From: Candidatus Ornithospirochaeta stercorigallinarum
Lineage (GTDB): Bacteria > Spirochaetota > Spirochaetia > Sphaerochaetales > Sphaerochaetaceae
Reading direction: 5' to 3'
Assembly (NCBI GenBank): GCA_018711525.1
Contig: DVIF01000090.1
Span: 1 to 37,290, forward strand
Length of the DNA: 37,290 nucleotides
The translations under genes and the position numbers were made by a program. Positions 14,869-28,463 of this stretch are shown piece by piece. How positions within the stretch are numbered: the stretch's first letter is position 1; the number at the start of each line of letters is the position of its first letter. A model generated the notes under the pieces. It worked only from the letters and a program-made list of their open reading frames with translations, did no database searches and was not told the DNA's origin.

Positions 14869-14898
14869 CGGATTGGTTTTATCCAATCCGTTTTTTTT
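14869..14898 (+). terminator. Rho-independent terminator of secA
   Basis: An 8-bp stem (CGGATTGG 14869-14876 with CCAATCCG 14883-14890) and a 6-nt loop are followed by eight T residues. It ends at the stop codon of the convergent LytM-like gene. Confidence 0.92.
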
Positions 14899-15572
14899 CA
14901 GAAATATATGGCAGGATCCTGGGCTGAAGAGCCCTTCTCCAGTTTGAAAAAGAGTGTCGGGGTTTCAAATGACTTGTTGGAAGTACCTATGGATCCTATG
15001 ATATCCCCTCTTCTGACTTTATCCCCCGGCTTTACAAGAACCGTCTCAAGGCAGTAGTAGCTGCTCCTAAGACCGCTCTGGGAATGCGATATGGAGATAT
15101 AGCGTCCATATTCATTGCTGTTTCCAGCATCACTGACTATGCCGTCCGAAGCCGCATACACGGCAGAACCGGCTGCAGCTGAATATGTAATGCCGTCCAG
15201 AGTCTTTCCCTCATATATCTCATTGAACGAATGTGTGACGATTCCATCCGAGGGAGCACGGAAGGAGGAAGGAACGACCTTTTCATCAGGTAATGTGACA
15301 TCTAAGAAGACATCATCAGCAATGGACGACGTATCGTCGCTTCTCTCGACTGAGATCTCTTCGACATCAGGGATGTTCAGTTCCATGGCAGAGGTGTTTT
15401 CCTCCTCTATCGCCCCATCTCCATCATCTACTGGTTTGAAGATGATATAGACGATAATTGCGATAAGGATTATGAGAACGCCCATGAACGATATTACATA
15501 TGTCTTTTTATCCCCGCCCTTACCTCTTCTGGAAAAGGACTGTCCCATATCATCATAGTCGTTACGGCTCAT
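14898..15572 (-). CDS. Membrane-anchored LytM (M23) domain protein lacking the zinc ligands
   Basis: The 224-residue protein has a basic cytoplasmic N-terminus, one membrane helix (about 24-45), an acidic Ser/Glu-rich linker and a C-terminal M23/LytM-type barrel (about 105-224). The fold is indicated by GSAVYAASDGIV, YGRYISISH, LVKPGDKVRRGDIIGSIG and FFKLEKG. The catalytic positions are changed. Where active enzymes have HxGxD there is L125-D-G-I-T129, and HLHFE is replaced by TLFFK (206-210). It should therefore not be a zinc endopeptidase. In other bacteria such degenerate LytM proteins (EnvC, NlpD) control cell-wall amidases at division. It is divergent from the transpeptidase-less PBP relative. 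The start has no clear Shine-Dalgarno sequence. Confidence 0.8.
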   Translation of the reverse strand: MSRNDYDDMGQSFSRRGKGGDKKTYVISFMGVLIILIAIIVYIIFKPVDDGDGAIEEENTSAMELNIPDVEEISVERSDDTSSIADDVFLDVTLPDEKVVPSSFRAPSDGIVTHSFNEIYEGKTLDGITYSAAAGSAVYAASDGIVSDAGNSNEYGRYISISHSQSGLRSSYYCLETVLVKPGDKVRRGDIIGSIGTSNKSFETPTLFFKLEKGSSAQDPAIYF

Positions 15573-15671: not shown

Positions 15672-16634
15672 ATGTCAAAAAACAACAGAAGCGATAAGGA
15701 AGGGATGGGGATATCCCTTTTGGTTCTTCTTTTATCGATAGTATTGATAGTCAGGCTTATCGGAATATACATATCAGAGGGGGTTATAAACACAAACTAC
15801 CGCGACCCTCAGATCAACACCGACTATTTCAGAGGTACGATATACGACAGAAGCGGAAACATCCTTGCAATGGACAGGACTTCATATTTCATAGAGATAG
15901 AAGCAGAGAGGGTCAGCGAGGTCAGCAGGCTTGCTGCAATAATAGCCCCATATACTGATGAAGATGCCGTCACAATCGAGAATGAGATCAGGAGCAGTGA
16001 ATTCCTTTCCATACCATCCAACCTCCTTATGGCAGAAGAGGAGAGATTCTCCGAGATGCTGAAAAAGGAGAATCTGGATCATCTTGTCACAATCAAGGAG
16101 AAGAAGGAGAGGATATATCCCCTCTCAGAGCATGGAAGGCTGCTGATAGGAAGGGAAGGAGAAGCATCCTCGATATCTGCTGAAGCCCTCTATGATGATA
16201 TCCTGAAACCTGAACTGACACTTGATGCGCCTGTTTCCTCTGGAAAGGACATCACCCTATCTCTCAGTCAGAGAATCGAGTACATAGCAGACCACATAGT
16301 ATCAAGTTATGTGGGAGAGAGAAGTGATGAATACCTGATGCTTGCCATGCTGGACTACTCCACAGGAGAGATCTACGCACTCTCTCAGAACAATCCTGAT
16401 GATAAGGCGGTCGACTATTATGCCATCGAACAGGCACTCTCATCCCGACACTATTCGATACTCAAGCACAATGGTGGCATCAACATCGATACGCCGGATG
16501 ATTTCTCAGGTATCTCCTCAGACCGATATATAAGAGTCATCTACCGCTCAGGATTCGCACTCGTCTCATCTTCCTCCTCAAAAGAGATGAGGGACGATGC
16601 CCTGACCGAGTTTGAGACAATGCTCTCGCTCTGA
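15672..16634 (+). CDS. PBP-like protein with dimerisation domain but no transpeptidase domain
   Basis: This 320-residue protein starts like a class B penicillin-binding protein (FtsI/PBP2). A short cytoplasmic tail is followed by one membrane helix (about 14-35) and then the pedestal signature RGTIYDRSGNILAMD (54-68). Residues 193-237 (DITLSLSQRIEYIAD ... DYSTGEIYAL) match the start of the catalytic module. There the protein diverges and stops within 85 residues, whereas family members continue for about 300 more with SxxK, SxN and KTG. An SSSK near residue 303 lies in a serine run at the C-terminus and is not a credible active site. I place the start at ATG 15672; an in-frame TTG at 15636 is possible. 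It ends 1 bp before convergent flhF. I infer a non-catalytic relative of FtsI. Confidence 0.75.
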   Translation: MSKNNRSDKEGMGISLLVLLLSIVLIVRLIGIYISEGVINTNYRDPQINTDYFRGTIYDRSGNILAMDRTSYFIEIEAERVSEVSRLAAIIAPYTDEDAVTIENEIRSSEFLSIPSNLLMAEEERFSEMLKKENLDHLVTIKEKKERIYPLSEHGRLLIGREGEASSISAEALYDDILKPELTLDAPVSSGKDITLSLSQRIEYIADHIVSSYVGERSDEYLMLAMLDYSTGEIYALSQNNPDDKAVDYYAIEQALSSRHYSILKHNGGINIDTPDDFSGISSDRYIRVIYRSGFALVSSSSSKEMRDDALTEFETMLSL

Positions 16635-16635
16635 C

Positions 16636-17718
16636 CTACTGCACCTGATGATCGAACCGTTTAAGATCAAGATCCAGTGAATTAAGATACCTTAGCACGA
16701 CAAGGCTCTCAGCCTTTTCAATATCCTCAGGAACCCTCTGTCCGTTCGTAATATAGAGTAAAGGCAGCTTATGACGGAATGAAAACGACAGGAGGGTCCC
16801 TATTGTCGAACATTCATCGACCTTGCTTGCTATGATGCTGTCCATCTTCATATAGGAGCAGTAATTCTCATAAAGGGAATCCAGATCGTCTATCTTCGTA
16901 GTTGCGGAGGCGACGAATATGAATTCAGAATTCGCCCTGTTGAGGTTGTTGAGCATGCTCTTGAGCCTTAGATTCAGCTCATCATCATTTCTGCCGAGCC
17001 CCATCGTATCTATCAGGACTGCATCATAATCCGCTGCATCATTTAGTGCAGAAATGAAGAGCGCCTCATCACTTACGGTCCTCAGTGGAATCTGCAGTGC
17101 ATCGGTAAGCTTCTGGATCTGGTAGAACGACCCCACACGGTAGCTGTCAAGGCTTATTATGAAGACATCCTTTCCCATCTTCTTATAGTTGATGGCCATC
17201 TTTGCACATGTAGTGGTCTTTCCCGATCCAGTCGGTCCAAGGAGAACCTGGTATTTGTTTCCACCATTCTTTTCAAGAAGGAGGTTGTCTATCATACGGC
17301 TGGCGATTTCCATCTCGACCTTCTGGTCCAATGGGAAATCCCTCATTATGACAGACCATAGAGGTTCTGTGATATCGTTGGCTTTCAGGATCTTCTCGGC
17401 TTTTGAGACCTTCTCAAGCGAGCCTCTGTAGACCTCGGTATCCAGCCTCTCGCTGCTGGTAAGGGAATCGGGATTGGGAGTACGTGCCTCTTTTTCAAAT
17501 TCAAGGATCGACTCGTCATCGTTCACCTTCCCTTTCCTTCCATCCCCCTGCGCTATGTAGAGTGTCAGGTCGCACTTGTTCCTTTTCTTTGAAAAAAGGC
17601 CTCCACCCACCGTGTAGTCACGACGTGAGTGGATCCTTATGTTGTTACTACCATATTCCTGCTCAGCTTTCCTAAGCGCTTCTTCGTAGCTGTTTGCAGT
17701 TATGGTTACATATTTCAT
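16636..17718 (-). CDS. flhF: FlhF-like SRP-family GTPase without flagellar neighbours
   Basis: FlhF proteins are SRP-type GTPases that position flagella. This 360-residue protein has the FlhF N-terminal region (MKYVTITANSYEEALRKAEQ) and an NG domain. G1 is GPTGSGKTTT (161-170), G2 includes DSYRVGSFYQIQ, G3 is DTMGLGRND (usually DTAGR), G4 is SKVD, and the closing loop is TNGQRVPEDI. The nucleotide-binding core looks intact, so the gene is probably expressed and selected. It begins 16 bp after hslU and is followed by the convergent PBP-like gene. No flagellar gene or FlhG occurs in the window. Its role without a flagellum is unknown; polar localisation of another complex is one possibility. 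Confidence 0.85.
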   Translation of the reverse strand: MKYVTITANSYEEALRKAEQEYGSNNIRIHSRRDYTVGGGLFSKKRNKCDLTLYIAQGDGRKGKVNDDESILEFEKEARTPNPDSLTSSERLDTEVYRGSLEKVSKAEKILKANDITEPLWSVIMRDFPLDQKVEMEIASRMIDNLLLEKNGGNKYQVLLGPTGSGKTTTCAKMAINYKKMGKDVFIISLDSYRVGSFYQIQKLTDALQIPLRTVSDEALFISALNDAADYDAVLIDTMGLGRNDDELNLRLKSMLNNLNRANSEFIFVASATTKIDDLDSLYENYCSYMKMDSIIASKVDECSTIGTLLSFSFRHKLPLLYITNGQRVPEDIEKAESLVVLRYLNSLDLDLKRFDHQVQ

Positions 17719-21274: not shown

Positions 21275-22216
21275 TCACTCTTCATCTTCTTCATCTGCAT
21301 CCAAACCGGGAATCATGGAGAACCTGTCGAATGCATTCAAAAGCTGTCTGGTATCCAGATGAGTGTAGATCTGCGTCGTCTTGATATCGCTATGCCCGAG
21401 CATCTCCTTTAGGCTACTGATATCCGCACCGTTTTCAATCATATGTGTGGCGAATGAGTGCCTGAGGCTATGTACTGTCGCCTCAAGACCTAAAGATGTG
21501 ACATGCTCATGGAATCGCTTGTGGACCGCCTGCCTTGTCAGCGCATTTCCTGTGCGTCCGAGGAAAAGGGCTTCAGAGTGTCTTTTCGAGCGCATTGCGA
21601 GTTTCGGTCTGACATTGTCTATGTAATATGAGAGTACATTGTTTGCAATATGCCCGATGAAGACGATCCTCTCCTTGTTCCTCTTTCCCACAACCTTTAC
21701 AAAGCTCTTCTCCCTTGAATATGAAGAGAGGCTGAGGCTGATCGCCTCACTTATCCTCATCCCTGAGGAGTAGATCAGCTCGAAAAGAGCGTAATCCCGT
21801 ATCATCAGATCGTCCTCCTCTCCCCTGAATGAGAGCAGGATCTCCTCGACCTCCTCTCGGGAAAGAGTCTTCGGCAGGTATTCACGATTCTTGGGCCGGG
21901 TGAGCAGAAGTGCAGGGTTGTCCTTCCTGTAGCCCTCCTTCACTGTGAACGAGAAAAAAGAGCGGAGTGCCGAAAGTATCTTTGAAAGCGTCCTTTCATC
22001 AAGCATCCCCTCCTTCTTCCTCTCATCCATGAAGGAGACAAGGGTGTTGAAATCAACAGAGGAGATGTCAAGTTTTTCCCTCTCAAGGTAGGATAACAAA
22101 ATGGATGCCTCTGCAGAATAGGCATCCTTCGTCTTCATGCTTACGCGTTTCTCAAAAAGAAGATAATCGGAATACATCCTGATTATCTCCTTGTCTATGT
22201 CATTAATTTCTGTCAT
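21275..22216 (-). CDS. Tyrosine recombinase, XerC/XerD type (second of two)
   Basis: This 313-residue site-specific recombinase has all catalytic residues: Arg in SSGMRISE, Lys in VGKRNKER, HxxR in VHSLRHSFATHMI, His in LGHSDIKTTQ and Tyr in IYTHLD. An N-terminal core-binding domain covers about the first 100 residues. I chose the ATG at 22216 (MTEINDIDKE), which overlaps ftsZ by 14 nt and gives the usual N-terminal length. An alternative ATG at 22177 has an excellent AAGGAG 9 nt upstream. The acidic tail DADEEDEE is unusual. Placement directly after ftsZ couples dimer resolution with division genes. Confidence 0.9.
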   Translation of the reverse strand: MTEINDIDKEIIRMYSDYLLFEKRVSMKTKDAYSAEASILLSYLEREKLDISSVDFNTLVSFMDERKKEGMLDERTLSKILSALRSFFSFTVKEGYRKDNPALLLTRPKNREYLPKTLSREEVEEILLSFRGEEDDLMIRDYALFELIYSSGMRISEAISLSLSSYSREKSFVKVVGKRNKERIVFIGHIANNVLSYYIDNVRPKLAMRSKRHSEALFLGRTGNALTRQAVHKRFHEHVTSLGLEATVHSLRHSFATHMIENGADISSLKEMLGHSDIKTTQIYTHLDTRQLLNAFDRFSMIPGLDADEEDEE

Positions 22217-23471
22217 CGTCGTCACGCGAGTAACGCAGTACGGCTGGGATGGAATAGTCGTTGGTGTTGGCGCTTCTCTTTCCAAGCTGCTTCTGCAGGT
22301 CCTGCCATCTGTTGACAGTGATAGTGGCCGGGTCTGCGTTGAGCGCCGCCTCCCTCTCTTTCTCCTTCTCCTTTTCCCTCTCTCTTTCCTTCTCCTTCTC
22401 TTCTGCCGCTCTCAGGCTCTCTTCCTTCCTGGCCTCTGCAAAACGGTTCCTGTAGGACTCCGCCTCCCTCTCAAGAGGTGATGTTTCAGGACGTTTTTCA
22501 AACCCAGTGGCGACAACGGTCACCCTTATCCTGTCACCGAGGGCGGGATTGTAGGACTGACCAGCGATAACAAGCACATCATCCGCACAGTTTTCAGTAA
22601 TGATCTCCACAACATCCTGGTATTCCTGGATTGTAAGGTTATCCCCACCTGCAAGGTTGACAAGCACACTCTTTGCACCATCAATCGAGGCATTCTCAAG
22701 CAGAGGATTGCTTATTGCACACTTTGCAGCCTCGACAGCCCTGTTGGCCCCCTCGGCGTATCCCAGTCCGATAAGAGCATCCCCCTTGCCTTTCATGACG
22801 GTCTTTACATCTGCAAAGTCGATGTTTATCTCACCCGGTTCGGTGATAAGGTCGGAAATACCCTGGACAGACTGAAGAAGAGCACTATCGGCCATGATGA
22901 AGGCCTGTTTTATCGGGGTGTTGTTATCCACGATGTTAAGAAGATGCTGATTAGGAATGAGAATCAAGGTATCAACCTGTTTCCTCAGCCTCTCTATTCC
23001 CTGCTGGGCCAATATGAGCTTCTTCTTACCCTCAAATGCAAAAGGAAGGGTTACGACAGCAACAGTAAGGGCCCCGCAGTTCCTTGCAACCTCAGCGACA
23101 ACGGCAGCGGCTCCAGTACCGGTTCCCCCTCCCATTCCAGCAGTGATGAAGACCATATCTGCATTCTCAAGGGATGCTCTGATCTCATCCTTGCTCTCAA
23201 TGGCCGCCTTCTCTCCGATTTCGGGCTGACCTCCGGCACCAAGACCTCCTGTGAGCTCCTTTCCAATGGCAAGCCTCGTCTGGGCATTGGAGCGCTGAAG
23301 AGCCTGGACATCGGTATTCATCGCAATGAACTGGACTTTCTTAAGGCCTGCGGCAATCATACGGTTTATGGCATTTCCACCACCACCGCCGACACCGACT
23401 ACCTTGATGATTGTAGGAGCTGCCTGCTCCCCTGTTGTCGTATCCTCGATATCAAAAATGTCAAAACTCAT
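22203..23471 (-). CDS. ftsZ: Cell division protein FtsZ
   Basis: FtsZ is the tubulin-like GTPase that forms the division ring. The 422-residue protein has GVGGGGGNAINRM, the GTP-binding tubulin signature GMGGGTGTGAAAVVAEVA, and the T7 loop NIDFADVKTVMKGKG with catalytic aspartate. A highly charged linker (about 345-390, Glu/Lys/Arg repeats) leads to the conserved C-terminal peptide YSIPAVLRYSR, here followed by the acidic extension DDDDRN. GGGGGAG precedes the ATG at 23471; a TTG two codons upstream is an alternative. It lies 12 bp after ftsA and overlaps the recombinase gene. Confidence 0.98.
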   Translation of the reverse strand: MSFDIFDIEDTTTGEQAAPTIIKVVGVGGGGGNAINRMIAAGLKKVQFIAMNTDVQALQRSNAQTRLAIGKELTGGLGAGGQPEIGEKAAIESKDEIRASLENADMVFITAGMGGGTGTGAAAVVAEVARNCGALTVAVVTLPFAFEGKKKLILAQQGIERLRKQVDTLILIPNQHLLNIVDNNTPIKQAFIMADSALLQSVQGISDLITEPGEINIDFADVKTVMKGKGDALIGLGYAEGANRAVEAAKCAISNPLLENASIDGAKSVLVNLAGGDNLTIQEYQDVVEIITENCADDVLVIAGQSYNPALGDRIRVTVVATGFEKRPETSPLEREAESYRNRFAEARKEESLRAAEEKEKEREREKEKEKEREAALNADPATITVNRWQDLQKQLGKRSANTNDYSIPAVLRYSRDDDDRN

Positions 23472-23483
23472 ATCCAACTCCCC

Positions 23484-24719
23484 CTAAAACAGCTTACTGA
23501 AAAGACCCTTCATCTTCGAAGAGAATCCAGCCTTGTCCTTTCCCCTTGAAATATTATGGTTTCCACTGTCCCTATATTTTTTTGCTTCTATCTTTACAAG
23601 TCCAAGAACTGTAGAGTACTTGGGATCTATATACTGTCTGTCCAGGCCGTTGATAGCCTGGGGAAATCCAAGTCTGGCAGGAAGACGGAATATCTCCGCA
23701 GCAAGCTCTGTAGCTCCGCTTAGAAGACTTCCCCCTCCGACCAGGACAATTCCTGCTCCGAAGGAACCGGAGATGTCATGCTTCTCAAGCTCGCCCTGCA
23801 GAAGAGAGAATATCTCAGCCATCCTCGGCTCGATGACCTTCGCAAGCTCCTTTCGTGGGAAGCGGAAACTGGGTTTTCCTCCGACAGCAGGTGTTATGAT
23901 CATCTCGTCAGGACTTACGCTGGGAGTATGGCACGAGCCATCGCTTATCTTTATCGATTCGGCAGCTACGCGTGGAAGCTGGAGCATATATGCGATGTCC
24001 CCTGTGACATTGTCCCCTCCGAATCCGATTCCGCCTACGTAGACGGGAGAGCCCTGGAGGTAGCAGATCATGTTTGTGGTGCCGGCACCGATGTTGATGA
24101 CTATGGCACCCATCTCCTTCTCTTCATTCGTAAGGACGACCTCGCTGTCGGCCAGGGGCTGGAGCACCATCCTCTGGACCTGTATTCCTGCCTTCTGCAC
24201 GCATTTCCTCTGATTCTGGCAGATTGATGAAGAACCGAGGACAAGAAGAACCCTTGTCTCAAGACGATGACCGAGCATGTCGATAGGATCCTTTATTCCA
24301 GAACGTGAATCAACCTGGAAATCCTGTACGAGCGTATGCAGGATCTCAGAGTCCTGGGGGATGTCACGGGCACGGGCGATCTCAATGGATTTACGGATAT
24401 CATCATTCTTGATCTCCTGGTCCTTGCTTGTAATGCCGACAGCCCCGTTGCTGGATATACCCTCTATATGATCTCCTCCGATTCCGAGGATTGCGGAAGA
24501 CACCTCTGTCCCACTTTGAAGTTCAGCATCGCTGATAACACTGTTGATGGCCTTTAGAGTCTGCTCGATATTCACGATGCTCCCGGATTTGACCCCTTCG
24601 CTAGCTCTTTCTGCGATAGCCTCGATCATGAGCTGCCCATCCCTGTTGACAGATGCGATCACAGCCCTGATTGAACTTGTACCAATATCCAGTCCTAATA
24701 ACGTCTTATCCGTAGCCAC
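23484..24719 (-). CDS. ftsA: Cell division protein FtsA
   Basis: FtsA is the actin-like membrane tether for FtsZ. The 411-residue protein has the phosphate-1 motif LGLDIGTSSIRAVI, the 1C insertion, phosphate-2 in VINIGAGTTNMICY, the adenosine motif in IVLVGGGSLLSGATELA, and a C-terminal amphipathic helix (SSKMKGLFSKLF) that binds membrane. I chose GTG 24719, one base after the ftsQ-like stop; the open frame continues 17 codons upstream inside that gene. It precedes ftsZ by 12 bp. Confidence 0.96.
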   Translation of the reverse strand: MATDKTLLGLDIGTSSIRAVIASVNRDGQLMIEAIAERASEGVKSGSIVNIEQTLKAINSVISDAELQSGTEVSSAILGIGGDHIEGISSNGAVGITSKDQEIKNDDIRKSIEIARARDIPQDSEILHTLVQDFQVDSRSGIKDPIDMLGHRLETRVLLVLGSSSICQNQRKCVQKAGIQVQRMVLQPLADSEVVLTNEEKEMGAIVINIGAGTTNMICYLQGSPVYVGGIGFGGDNVTGDIAYMLQLPRVAAESIKISDGSCHTPSVSPDEMIITPAVGGKPSFRFPRKELAKVIEPRMAEIFSLLQGELEKHDISGSFGAGIVLVGGGSLLSGATELAAEIFRLPARLGFPQAINGLDRQYIDPKYSTVLGLVKIEAKKYRDSGNHNISRGKDKAGFSSKMKGLFSKLF

Positions 24720-24720
24720 T

Positions 24721-25443
24721 TCAACCCAACCGCCTAAAGAAAGTATCGTTTCCGATCTCAAAGACCTCATGGTCCAGGAAATCCATCCCGTCTATTTTTT
24801 CCAGACAGGAAGAGAGAAAAGAAGAGTCCGTCTCCCCTGTGATGAAAAGGATGAAATCCTTCTCCTTTCCATATAAGGTGAGAACTCCGAAACCGCTTCC
24901 GGAAGGAAGGGAATATCCTACTCTTCCAATCAAATTTTCATTATATCCGTTTTGCCCCTGAATATCCATCAACAATGCCAATATCGAGTCAAGTTCACCA
25001 CTCTCAGGAAAAGAGAGCACATAGGAAAGCATCTCCTCTGTCATCATGAACAGGATATACCTTGAGAGCAGAGGGGGCACATCTTTATATTCTATTTCGC
25101 CTATTCCTTCTTCAGAAAAGAAATAGAATCTCCTGCCATCACTTAGGACCAATCCCTTTTCATAGCTGATTGAAACATCAAAGGAGAGGAAACCGGAACT
25201 TGAGATCGAGACCTCATCTACATATGCAAGGCTCTCCAGATTACCTCTCAGGGACTGGAATCTCGAAGAAAAGAAATTCGAATCATCTGCTATATTCACA
25301 AAGCGCTCTATGCTGGCGACAGTCGATGAAAAGCAATCGGTGCCCAATGCCCTGACCCTGAAGAAATCCATATAGGAGAAGGCATATATGCATAAAAGGG
25401 CTGATAAGAAGAACATACTGAGGCTAATCACGAACTTTCTCAT
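24721..25443 (-). CDS. ftsQ: FtsQ/DivIB-like division protein
   Basis: This 240-residue protein has one N-terminal membrane helix (about 4-24) and an extracytoplasmic region beginning with a POTRA-like segment (FFRVRALG ... LAYVDEVSISS). Such proteins bridge the cytoplasmic ring to FtsW, FtsI and FtsL outside the membrane. Sequence conservation is low, so the name rests on topology, size and position between ftsW-like and ftsA genes. AGGAAGGGGG lies directly before the ATG at 25443, and the gene overlaps the ftsW-like gene by 20 nt. Confidence 0.8.
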   Translation of the reverse strand: MRKFVISLSMFFLSALLCIYAFSYMDFFRVRALGTDCFSSTVASIERFVNIADDSNFFSSRFQSLRGNLESLAYVDEVSISSSGFLSFDVSISYEKGLVLSDGRRFYFFSEEGIGEIEYKDVPPLLSRYILFMMTEEMLSYVLSFPESGELDSILALLMDIQGQNGYNENLIGRVGYSLPSGSGFGVLTLYGKEKDFILFITGETDSSFLSSCLEKIDGMDFLDHEVFEIGNDTFFRRLG

Positions 25444-26596
25444 ACCCCCTTCCTGTAATATGCATGAACCTATATAGGAAAGCACATTCTGTTATCGTAA
25501 GGAAATAGCTGAATCCGTCAGCACTGAAGAACGGCATTGAAATCCCACTGGATGGGATTACGGAGCATGAAGACAGCATGCTCAGCAATGACTTGAAGAC
25601 AATCATGAAAGAAAAAGACAGGGATACGATCCTTATATAATCATCCCCGCTCTTTTTACTCCTGTGAGCACATCTTATGTTCAAAAACAGGAAGAGGAAG
25701 AAGAAAAGGAGGATCATCAGAGTCCCTACAAGACCTACTTCCTCTGCGATGACCGCATAGACATATTCATCTTCGACATTACCTATCTGCCCAAGCTTAT
25801 AATAGGATGATCCTATCCCTTTGCCGAATATCCCACCTTCAGCAATAGCAGAAAGGCAGTTGGAGGCACTAAGGGCATCAGAGGTGTCCCAGTAGTAAGG
25901 CATGAGACGTGAGAAGAAACTGCTGAGGAATGTCTGGGATGAGAGGATCACAAAGACGACAAGTGTAAGATTGAACAGAAGATAGAAGAAAACATACCTC
26001 CTGCTCATCGATGCCGCATGAAGGGCGACACTCATCGTAAGGAAGAACAGTATCGAATAACAGAAGTTCTTCGAGAGCGTCATCATCAGCGTGATGAGAA
26101 GACTGAGGATGAAGAATGCAAGATAGAAATACCCCCTGCCCTCCTTCTCCCTTATCCTAGGCAGGATGTATGCAAGCATCAGCACAGATGAGAATATCAT
26201 GGCATCCGAACCATTTAGATCGGGAAACCCTGAGAGTATGCTCACATTCTCTCCACCGAGGGAAGAGATTACATTCATGGCAAGGAGGATGAAAGACAAA
26301 GGAAGAGTGAAATAGAAAAGCTTCTCAAGTTTTGCTCTCGGCATGAAGAAAAGGACGATTCCCGTTATCATGGCAAAGAAGCCGAATGTGACCATCTCCA
26401 AAAGATAATGATAATGGCTGAGCCCTTCGCGGATTGCACTATCATAACTGGCACTGTATGCCATGATGAGACCGAAGAGCATCAGGACTGCGACGACACA
26501 GAGGAATGTAAAGGGACTGAGGGAGCCTGAGAGCTCGTCAGTAGAATAATCAGTCAATGTAAAATCATCGTAATCCTTCGAGTATTCTTCTCTCAT
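25424..26596 (-). CDS. ftsW: Divergent FtsW-like SEDS family membrane protein
   Basis: SEDS proteins polymerise lipid II into glycan strands. This 390-residue protein has about ten membrane helices and the recognisable core GGIFGKGIGSSYYKLGQ and YAVIAEEVGLVG (256-290). Several family-defining residues are changed. Where active enzymes have PExHTDFIFA with the catalytic aspartate, there is GNVEDEYVYA (272-281, Glu at that position). QPSE is replaced by NGSD (128-131). The C-terminal PFxSxGGSS is PFFSADGFS (355-363). Polymerase activity is therefore doubtful. It heads a second half of the division cluster with its own likely promoter and is followed by ftsQ with a 20-nt overlap. Confidence 0.82.
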   Translation of the reverse strand: MREEYSKDYDDFTLTDYSTDELSGSLSPFTFLCVVAVLMLFGLIMAYSASYDSAIREGLSHYHYLLEMVTFGFFAMITGIVLFFMPRAKLEKLFYFTLPLSFILLAMNVISSLGGENVSILSGFPDLNGSDAMIFSSVLMLAYILPRIREKEGRGYFYLAFFILSLLITLMMTLSKNFCYSILFFLTMSVALHAASMSRRYVFFYLLFNLTLVVFVILSSQTFLSSFFSRLMPYYWDTSDALSASNCLSAIAEGGIFGKGIGSSYYKLGQIGNVEDEYVYAVIAEEVGLVGTLMILLFFFLFLFLNIRCAHRSKKSGDDYIRIVSLSFSFMIVFKSLLSMLSSCSVIPSSGISMPFFSADGFSYFLTITECAFLYRFMHITGRGYEKVRD

Positions 26597-26778: not shown

Positions 26779-27057
26779 TTAATTATGCGCAGAAAGACGC
26801 ATGGAAAGCTCGTTTACAGAGGCGAGCACCACCATATCCTCCCTTTCTGCCGCATTCTCCGCCATGCTCGTGCGTATGCGTCTCTCCTCCTGATCGAGTT
26901 CTGCAAGTGCGATCTCATCACTTCTGATCTTCATCTCCAGGCTGTGGTTCACACCAATCTGCCAGAGTGGGACGAAGAGTGCGAAGAACATGAATATGAA
27001 AGCCATTATGATTATGGCCTTCTCTTTTATATCGAATCTGAATGTACTCTCTCTCAT
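26779..27057 (-). CDS. ftsL: FtsL-like bitopic division protein
   Basis: The 92-residue protein has a short cytoplasmic N-terminus, one membrane helix (about 13-33) and a C-terminal stretch with heptad-like hydrophobic spacing (LEMKIRSDEIALAELDQEERRIR), the usual FtsL layout. FtsL proteins are too variable to identify by sequence, so the call rests on size, topology and its position straight after rsmH, with a 4-nt ATGA overlap. ftsI, which normally follows, is missing. Confidence 0.75.
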   Translation of the reverse strand: MRESTFRFDIKEKAIIIMAFIFMFFALFVPLWQIGVNHSLEMKIRSDEIALAELDQEERRIRTSMAENAAEREDMVVLASVNELSMRLSAHN

Positions 27058-27944
27058 ATCTTTTCAACCACCCTGAGTTTTGCGCTTCTGCTCGGCGCGT
27101 TCTCCTTCTCCTCCTCAGCTGTTGGAATGACAGGTTTCTTGGTTATTATCCTTATCTGAGGATTCTCCTTGGCCTCCTCATCCTTGAATGTCCACTTTAC
27201 AATCCTGTCTTCAAGGCTGTGGAAGGTTATGACCCCGATGCGTCCACCTCTCTTAAGCACCCTGATGGCTTCAAGAAGGGAAGGTCGTATCCTGTCGAGC
27301 TCGCCATTGACTTCAATCCTCAATGCCTGGAATGTCCTTGTCGCGGGATTGATTCTTCCATAGCGGTACTCTTTAGGAACAGCATGGAAGATTATATCTT
27401 CTGCCTCCTTGCTGGTCTTTATGGGCTCAAGTTTTCTTCTTTCGACGAACGCTCTTGCAATACGTCTTGAATATCTCTCTTCCCCATAACGATATATCAA
27501 ATCAGCAAGGTCTTCCTCGCTGTAGCTGTTGACGATATGTGCCGCACTTAGGGATGCGTTTTTATTGAGCCGCATGTCAAGTGGCTCGTCTTTTCTGAAC
27601 GAAAATCCCCTTCTGCTCTCCTCATAATGGAAAATAGAGATTCCGAGGTCAAAGAGGATTCTGTCTGCACTTTCACTTTCCGCATTCCTCAGATAGTCAT
27701 CAAACCATGCGTTCACAGCTTTGAACCTTCCAGGGTATACGGAAAGACGTTCTATCGCCTTCTTCTGGATCTCCTCATCCCGGTCGATGCCGATGACGTG
27801 CAGACGGGGAAAGCGCTCAAGGAAAAGGTTGCTATGGCCACCTTCCCCCGTCGTGCAGTCAATCATCACAGCATCTTCATCCGTACTCAACGCAAGATAT
27901 TCCAGCACGCTTTCATGAAGTACAGGGTAATGAAGGATCTCCAT
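27054..27944 (-). CDS. rsmH: 16S rRNA (cytosine-1402-N4) methyltransferase RsmH
   Basis: RsmH (MraW) methylates C1402 of 16S rRNA using S-adenosylmethionine. The 296-residue protein begins HYPVLHESVLEYL and has the SAM motif DCTTGEGGHS, FDLGIS, SFRKDEPLDMRLN, and the closing GVITFHSLEDRIVKW. The ATG at 27944 shares one base with the mraZ stop (TGATG) and has GAGGAG 9 nt upstream. Confidence 0.97.
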   Translation of the reverse strand: MEILHYPVLHESVLEYLALSTDEDAVMIDCTTGEGGHSNLFLERFPRLHVIGIDRDEEIQKKAIERLSVYPGRFKAVNAWFDDYLRNAESESADRILFDLGISIFHYEESRRGFSFRKDEPLDMRLNKNASLSAAHIVNSYSEEDLADLIYRYGEERYSRRIARAFVERRKLEPIKTSKEAEDIIFHAVPKEYRYGRINPATRTFQALRIEVNGELDRIRPSLLEAIRVLKRGGRIGVITFHSLEDRIVKWTFKDEEAKENPQIRIITKKPVIPTAEEEKENAPSRSAKLRVVEKI

Positions 27945-28399
27945 CACATCGTACTCCTCAGCCTATCAGCTAAGCTGGATATGCTCTCGCTCTCTTCTTC
28001 CATTGCCTTATTATAGATTTCAGAGTTCCAGACTTCTATTGCATAACCAGTTCCAACCAAGACTACCTCGCTCTTAGTCAGAATTGAATATTTCTCTCTC
28101 AAGTTCTGTGGTATGTTGATTCTTCCTGACGCATCCTGCTCTATGTATACGGCAGGAGAGATGAGTCTTCTAATTAGACTGCGCTTTCCGCTGTCAAACA
28201 TTGCGGTGTCAGAGGAAAGCACAGCCTGGGAAAACCGATCTTCGAAGTAGGAAGGAGTCATAAGCATCAAATGGTTCTCATCAAGACCGGGAAGTACAAC
28301 AAGCTCCTGGGACTGTAGAGCCTGACGCATGCGGGCAGGAAGTAGAATCCTACCTTTGTCATCAACGTTAGTACTGTAAATCCCCGTAATCATCTTCAT
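27944..28399 (-). CDS. mraZ: Transcriptional regulator MraZ
   Basis: MraZ is a ring-forming AbrB-fold DNA-binding protein that controls its own division cluster. At 151 residues it has both DxxGR repeats: DDKGRILLPARMR near the N-terminus and DASGRINIPQNLRE in the middle. I chose the ATG at 28399 (MKMITGIYS), preceded by GGTGA; an ATG two codons further is also possible. It is the first gene of mraZ-rsmH-ftsL, with a five-box operator-like array immediately upstream. Confidence 0.95.
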   Translation of the reverse strand: MKMITGIYSTNVDDKGRILLPARMRQALQSQELVVLPGLDENHLMLMTPSYFEDRFSQAVLSSDTAMFDSGKRSLIRRLISPAVYIEQDASGRINIPQNLREKYSILTKSEVVLVGTGYAIEVWNSEIYNKAMEEESESISSLADRLRSTM

Positions 28400-28407
28400 A
28401 AGTTTCA

Positions 28408-28463
28408 CCACTTTATGGGAAATGCCACCACTTCTTGACACTAACTTACACTAACTACCACTC
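28408..28463 (-). promoter_or_regulatory. Probable MraZ operator: five AGTG boxes on a 10-bp register
   Basis: CACT on the plus strand (AGTG on the minus strand) begins at 28409, 28429, 28439, 28449 and 28459, exactly multiples of 10 bp apart, with only the 28419 position empty. Three boxes extend to AGTGGT and two to TAGTGT. MraZ rings in other bacteria bind several short GTG- or TGGG-containing boxes at 10-bp spacing in front of mraZ. A possible promoter (TTGATA 28497-28492, 17 bp, TAGTTG 28474-28469) lies just upstream, so binding here would cover the start site. The array ends 9 bp before the mraZ ATG. Confidence 0.72.

Follow-up and report, generated by a model that had tools for sequence, protein, structure and literature searches.

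A spirochaete FtsI ortholog without a transpeptidase domain, with a motif-depleted FtsW partner, in a genus that appears to have lost peptidoglycan synthesis

The window analysed here is a stretch of 37,290 nucleotides from Candidatus Ornithospirochaeta stercorigallinarum. Positions 15672-16634 (+) hold an open reading frame for a protein of 320 amino acids, running from ATG to TGA with zero internal stops; translation could also begin at a TTG 12 codons upstream. By its reading frame, Pfam content, gene order and homologs, we identify the protein as an FtsI ortholog without a transpeptidase domain (FtsI*). The earlier note on this DNA had described a penicillin-binding protein (PBP) relative with a membrane helix, the RGTIYDRSGNILA pedestal motif and the string TGEIYAL but no transpeptidase domain, and both the frame and the Pfam scan bear this out. 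An N-terminal membrane helix can be read from the sequence. The only Pfam match is the PBP dimerisation, or pedestal, domain (PF03717, 35.5 bits; cut-off 24.4) at residues 54-174 (15831..16193, +), which begins with RGTIYDRSGNILA (residues 54-66); the transpeptidase domain (PF00905) gives no Pfam match up to E 10. TGEIYAL (residues 231-237; 16362..16382, +) is read as a remnant of the first strand of that domain, since the profile alignment ends nearby. It is followed by 83 residues, the last 80 or so of which (16392..16631, +) form a faster-evolving tail that replaces the catalytic domain and, in the window's subgroup, has no detectable similarity to the transpeptidase domain.

A pattern search found neither S[CAS]N nor K[TS]G[TSV] in FtsI*, and its three SxxK strings all lie out of context; the ordered SxxK, SxN and KTG set of class B PBPs is lacking, as the note had said. 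The proteins matched in NCBIfam and PDB are class B PBPs, aligned over their N-terminal portions. The best NCBIfam score belongs to MrdA but, at 41.3 bits, does not pass the equivalog cut-off of 455, and we rejected an assignment to PBP2; FtsI is preferred because of the gene order and because the best NCBIfam match of the partner protein is FtsW. Five residues of the pedestal region (G55, D59, L65, R147, and E171), together with G191 just beyond the domain, are identical in all 41 aligned transpeptidase-less proteins.

We compared the locus with a family set of 139 genomes (the window's own and 138 others), 48 of which make up the window's genus (g1), and read 60 stretches from relatives around ftsI and ftsW. 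The g1 loci read in this way represent 28 of the 48 genomes, window included. Apart from stretch ends and single absent genes, g1 and the transpeptidase-positive relatives have in common the order secA, M23-like, ftsI, flhF, hslU, hslV, xer, x, xer, ftsZ, ftsA, ftsQ-like, ftsW. In a second transpeptidase-less clade, the M23-like gene and ftsI instead adjoin a mraZ-mraW-ftsW-ftsQ-ftsA-ftsZ cluster. FtsI measures 537-582 aa in 15 transpeptidase-positive loci (L084, a fused frame, left out), between 282 and 407 aa (median 319, taking the longest ORF) in the 28 g1 loci, and 328-391 aa in 12 second-clade loci. Profile-profile comparison of g1 sets with the 15 full-length relatives gives E-values from 2.5e-27 to 9.2e-42 (the latter for all 28 g1 proteins), and the alignment stops at or just past the first transpeptidase strand. 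FtsI* thus has the membrane helix and pedestal of a class B PBP and the gene-order position of FtsI, and the suggestion that it is an FtsI reduced to its non-catalytic part is upheld by this orthologous place and by the purifying selection described below.

Downstream, flhF (16636-17718, -) is convergent with ftsI and lies one base from the FtsI* stop, in agreement with the note's account of a clean frame ending 1 bp from that gene; flhF adjoins ftsI in 28 out of 28 g1 loci. The divergent neighbor on the other side encodes an M23/LytM-like protein (14898..15572, -; PF01551), found beside ftsI in all 28 g1 loci and in all but one (near a contig start) of 13 second-clade loci. Only one histidine column of this protein is conserved, even among 16 transpeptidase-positive loci, and for that reason we rejected it as an indicator that the wall was lost. 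M23 catalysis requires more metal ligands than one histidine, so the protein may act in regulation instead of hydrolysis. Elsewhere in the window, positions 189-1007 encode an undecaprenyl-phosphate translocase-like protein (PF04018), in a genome with no match to MraY; it perhaps serves another surface glycan.

The division cluster starts with mraZ and mraW (27054..28441, -). Between mraW and ftsW lies a gene for an FtsL-like protein of 92 aa with one membrane helix (26779..27057, -), named from its place and topology; it has no family match in Pfam or NCBIfam, and counterparts occur in 28/28 g1 and 6/7 second-clade loci. An FtsQ-like protein of 254 aa (24721..25485, -), lying between ftsW and ftsA, is likewise without a Pfam or NCBIfam match and is named from its place and its profile relatives. 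FtsA (23484..24770, -; PF14450) and FtsZ (22203..23477, -; PF00091 and PF12327; TIGR00065, 429 bits) follow. The gap between mraW and ftsW measures 276-458 bases in 35 transpeptidase-less loci of g1 and the second clade. Six other loci, positive or intermediate, show both genes, with a gap of 2.1-2.7 kb that holds mraY, a segment absent here.

The partner protein, FtsW* (390 aa; 25424..26596, -), passes the FtsW/SEDS family threshold (PF01098, 124.1 bits; cut-off 26.4), and its TIGR02614 score of 159.5 bits is below the equivalog cut-off (337.5). Three conserved elements (the RW loop, QPSE-K, and an ECL4 stretch with two arginines and an aspartate) are kept in the FtsW of all 15 transpeptidase-positive loci and of two intermediate loci, the residue before the RW loop being R or K in the positives and R or Q in the intermediates. 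We take RW and QPSE-K to be part of the lipid II site. In g1, the RW loop, the QPSE glutamate, the following lysine, and both ECL4 arginines are each kept in none of the 28 loci. The ECL4 aspartate is aligned in 13 of the 28 loci; FtsW* of the window carries W at that position and a D in the next column. The seven second-clade loci are similar: none has the RW loop, the glutamate or the lysine, one arginine is present in two loci and the other in none, and the aspartate is present in one. FtsW* therefore lacks the conserved motif set of SEDS glycosyltransferases. Two other stretches, EE-G and PFFS, are retained in g1: of 28 loci, 25, 28 and 28 have the E, E and G, and 28, 28, 26 and 28 the P, F, F and S. 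The ECL4 aspartate is described as the putative catalytic residue, and the FtsI pedestal as touching ECL4 (PMC8998562, PMC7614612), a contact tied to FtsW activation (PMC8998562). The earlier note had proposed that the truncated protein is retained as a structural partner for the FtsW-like protein. An FtsW-like gene is indeed present in the same neighborhood, but since FtsW* has lost its own motifs, FtsI* would not be the structural partner of a working FtsW.

Matches in the family searches were counted at E ≤ 0.001 (E ≤ 0.01 for FtsI homologs). PF00905 occurs in 59 of the 139 genomes, with exactly one match in each, and in 0/48 g1 genomes, 25 of which are at least 90% complete. MraY (TIGR00445) is found in 63 genomes (13 above the curated cut-off), again with no match in the 48 of g1. 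The two calls agree in 131 of 139 genomes, the exceptions being two genomes with a transpeptidase and no MraY match (G097 and G111) and six with MraY and no transpeptidase match (G003, G004, G006, G025, G103, and G107). No genome out of 139 has MurC (TIGR01082) above the curated cut-off; the profile reaches 327 bits in transpeptidase-positive genomes, which mostly have four to seven Mur-ligase-like matches, and at best 41.6 bits in g1 (for a MurD-like protein), where there are zero to two. The PF00912 glycosyltransferase has no match in the 139 genomes, and YkuD (L,D-transpeptidase) is found in two (G006:C148:6068-6523 and G118:C88:2107-2562) and in none of the 48 g1 genomes. For wall synthesis, the gene-by-gene searches covered these five families and MurD. 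FtsZ is present in 135/139 genomes and FtsW/RodA in 132/139, including 48/48 in g1, where the best FtsW/RodA score is ≤154 bits, compared with 163.8-310 bits in transpeptidase-positive genomes (the two lowest of these reflecting partial profile coverage only). The lack of MraY, PF00912, PF00905, YkuD, or strong MurC matches in g1 suggests that the context of FtsI* is a loss of peptidoglycan synthesis.

FtsI homologs were found in 126 of the 139 family genomes and 44 of the 48 in g1 (four have none), with no internal stop in any of the matches listed. A recent truncation or an assembly error is rejected, since all of the g1 homologs are without a PF00905 match; the note's view that this is not a fresh pseudogene stands, and the frame breaks and near-unity dN/dS expected of one are absent. 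Full-length orthologs, which the note had named together with a recent truncation as evidence against its reading, do exist in sister genera, but recent truncation of the window's copy is not supported. Nor has the transpeptidase moved to another gene: the search for an intact class B PBP across the window's genome (83% complete) found no PF00905 match, as in the rest of g1. Takeover by an L,D-transpeptidase is rejected on the YkuD result. The PF00905 controls were positive in 10 of 14 named genomes. The FtsI of G004 scores 30.7 bits by hmmscan while the family genome search found no match in that genome, which indicates that strongly degenerate transpeptidase domains can escape the genome search. 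Direct scanning of five short FtsI proteins (those of the window, L039, L045, L053, and L066) again gave no PF00905 match. A single-protein search with FtsI found no relative in the named genomes' contigs, and an alignment-based search found 10 loci. In one transpeptidase-less genome, a contig (L166, G132:C62) carries MurF and a Ddl-like ORF; these were set aside as probable, though unproven, contamination.

In a phylum sample, 362 of 389 genomes have a transpeptidase; among the 27 genomes lacking one, at least 20 (all those listed) are members of g1. In an rpoB tree built from 52 genomes, g1 does not group with the second transpeptidase-less clade (g3, g4, g8, g14, g18, and g21). The sister group of that clade comprises g7 and g10, which include transpeptidase-bearing genomes, and g22 forms a third transpeptidase-less branch. 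Three changes are needed on this tree, two of them forced by well-supported branches; it is a tree of one gene, with a long-branch warning for G031 in g1 and G137 in g22. Since nearly every genome of the phylum sample carries the transpeptidase domain, we interpret the changes as independent losses. Similarity to the C-terminal end of that domain is detectable in the second clade (E 1.7e-9 for 12 proteins, with L073, a contig-end fragment, left out; the reversed control gives 0.18), weakly so in one g1 subgroup of four (E 0.0086), not clearly in 14 pooled g1 proteins (E 0.086), and not in the window's subgroup of six (E 0.34). In the second clade, therefore, the domain was excised internally, and simple truncation as the sole route had to be amended.

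Two further genomes, both of genus g2, have intermediate FtsI proteins: 472 aa in G004 (L095, 11946-13364), with residual PF00905 similarity over part of the domain, and 478 aa in G006 (L096, 1209-2645). The SxN and KTG patterns are gone from both, and matches for MraY and MurC, as well as the FtsW motifs, are present, which hints at the order of wall loss. The three g22 genomes (G136-G138; 87%-95% complete) show neither an FtsI nor an FtsW match and have FtsZ (partial in G138), so that the FtsI-FtsW pair appears to be dispensable there.

We favor, at a probability of roughly 70%, the explanation that peptidoglycan synthesis was lost and that a catalytically empty FtsW-FtsI-FtsL-FtsQ complex was kept as a divisome scaffold. 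FtsI* would be the family's single class B PBP, which shed its transpeptidase domain in a lineage whose cells, judging from their gene content, may be without peptidoglycan, and which was kept as the membrane-anchored pedestal of the complex. FtsW* would probably be unable to bind or polymerise lipid II. Together with the FtsL-like and FtsQ-like proteins, the two may form an enzymatically empty membrane complex, recruited by FtsA and FtsZ at the division site, whose periplasmic part would link inner-membrane constriction to the envelope and stabilise or signal to the Z-ring. The strongest counter-argument to the scaffold mechanism is g22, with its FtsZ and no FtsI or FtsW match; the MurD-like protein of 40/48 g1 genomes and the aligned FtsW aspartate in 13/28 loci also count against the favored explanation.

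The best-surviving alternative, which we nonetheless consider unlikely, is that after wall loss ftsI and ftsW became functionless and are on their way out, as their absence from the g22 matches could suggest. Conservation is much lower in FtsI and FtsW than in FtsZ and FtsA (mean distances of 1.86 and 1.31, against 0.24 and 0.25), and the FtsI tail evolves faster than the pedestal (pedestal/tail dN/dS 0.120/0.132, 0.069/0.100, 0.078/0.123, and 0.069/0.257 in four close g1 pairs; Nei-Gojobori, more distant pairs being near saturation). However, dN/dS for the whole of ftsI in the same pairs is 0.124, 0.078, 0.094, and 0.114, indicating purifying selection; values for ftsW are 0.037, 0.097, 0.023, and 0.022, and those for ftsA in close g1 pairs 0.004-0.025. 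The open frames, the six invariant residues, and the similar outcome in two separate clades also speak against decay, as does the residual correlation between the two partners. Across 23 g1 genomes (four near-copies and one locus missing a gene left out of the 28), with the background of five other genes removed, FtsI and FtsW distances have a partial r of 0.62 (Mantel P = 0.001), a stronger correlation than in any other of the 13 pairs compared (P uncorrected). FtsW also correlates with FtsA (0.57, P = 0.001), the M23-like protein (0.33, P = 0.008), FtsZ (0.31, P = 0.008), and FtsQ (0.22, P = 0.035), and FtsI with flhF (0.27, P = 0.004) and FtsA (0.24, P = 0.040); FtsI-FtsQ is at 0.05 (P = 0.34). 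The method is not fully specific, since flhF, a mere neighbor, also correlates with FtsI.

Slightly less probable still is a cryptic peptidoglycan, in which unknown enzymes replace MraY, the FtsW activity, and the transpeptidase, and are regulated by FtsI* and FtsW*. The M23-like gene next to ftsI and the translocase-like gene of the window are in keeping with this, as are the murotetrapeptides reported for the relative Bullifex porci (PMC7738495); Bullifex, however, is reported to have mur genes and mraY, and none of the four enzyme families searched (PF00905, MraY, PF00912, YkuD) has a match in the 48 g1 genomes. The retained MurD-like protein points both ways. An ortholog of MurD is carried by the window's own genome (G000:C65:67-1347, locus L178), and that of G035 scores 181.5 bits with TIGR01087 (cut-off 211.95). 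In an alignment of 20 of the 40 g1 copies with 17 positive and five second-clade rows, the D-H-x-N-x-Y block, invariant in the positives, is lost in g1 (0/20 at each of four columns); K220 is kept in 0/20, N145 in 1/20, and H298 in 2/20, with the P-loop lysine in 19/20. The second-clade rows have N145 in 5/5, D and K220 in 2/5 each, and H, N, and Y in 0/5. The lost positions presumably serve substrate binding or catalysis.

That FtsI* has left division for another envelope job, for example with the M23-like protein that so regularly adjoins it, is the least probable alternative, as FtsI-M23 co-divergence is low (partial r 0.12, P = 0.14, against 0.62 with FtsW) and relatives with a full FtsI have the same neighbor.

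Beyond the scaffold explanation for g1, we give somewhat better than even odds to a wider proposal: within a single gut spirochaete family, two or more lineages would have independently abandoned peptidoglycan and would rely for division on FtsZ, FtsA and an empty FtsQ-FtsL-FtsW-FtsI set, retaining a cytoplasmic pseudo-MurD as well, and the core divisome would have a conserved job besides septal wall synthesis. As long as the wall is essential, it is difficult to ask whether FtsW and FtsI have any role in division besides the synthesis and cross-linking of septal peptidoglycan. Seemingly wall-less lineages in which selection maintains both proteins, shorn of their active parts, may highlight the residues and contacts that serve a non-enzymatic job, candidates being the pedestal motif, the EE-G and PFFS stretches of FtsW, and the FtsL helix. 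If the proposal is true, evolution has twice run a separation-of-function experiment on the core divisome.

Among the open-licence papers listed by the literature searches, titles and abstract openings contain no description of a transpeptidase-less FtsI or of peptidoglycan loss in g1; the subject of PMC12236494 is the loss of spiral shape. Within the family, one TPase is reported for Sphaerochaeta coccoides (PMC4423922), and Sphaerochaeta and Bullifex porci are reported to have mur genes and to be missing PBP1a, 2 and C, with Bullifex unaffected by beta-lactams (PMC7738495). The full-length FtsI proteins of relatives are orthologous to FtsI* by gene order and sequence, but those relatives keep the transpeptidase and mur genes, whereas g1 shows neither, save the MurD-like protein. 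Compared with FtsI/PBP3 and the FtsWIQBL core divisome, the window has the orthologous gene, the membrane helix, the pedestal, and the partners nearby; unlike there, the transpeptidase domain and FtsW motifs are missing, and the lipid II pathway genes tested have no match. Peptidoglycan-negative bacteria, as outlined in PMC8406291, are classed by joint enzyme loss, 20 of 4,985 closed genomes having lost aPBP, bPBP, and SEDS together; g1 resembles them, at the level of gene content, in the loss of most peptidoglycan genes and differs in that a SEDS protein and a bPBP remain without their active parts. Finally, cells can require a division PBP for something other than transpeptidation (PMC8078798), and Bacillus PBP2B and Staphylococcus PBP1 are similar to the proposed FtsI* in having a protein role separate from cross-linking; in contrast to FtsI*, both keep the domain and have a working FtsW to activate.
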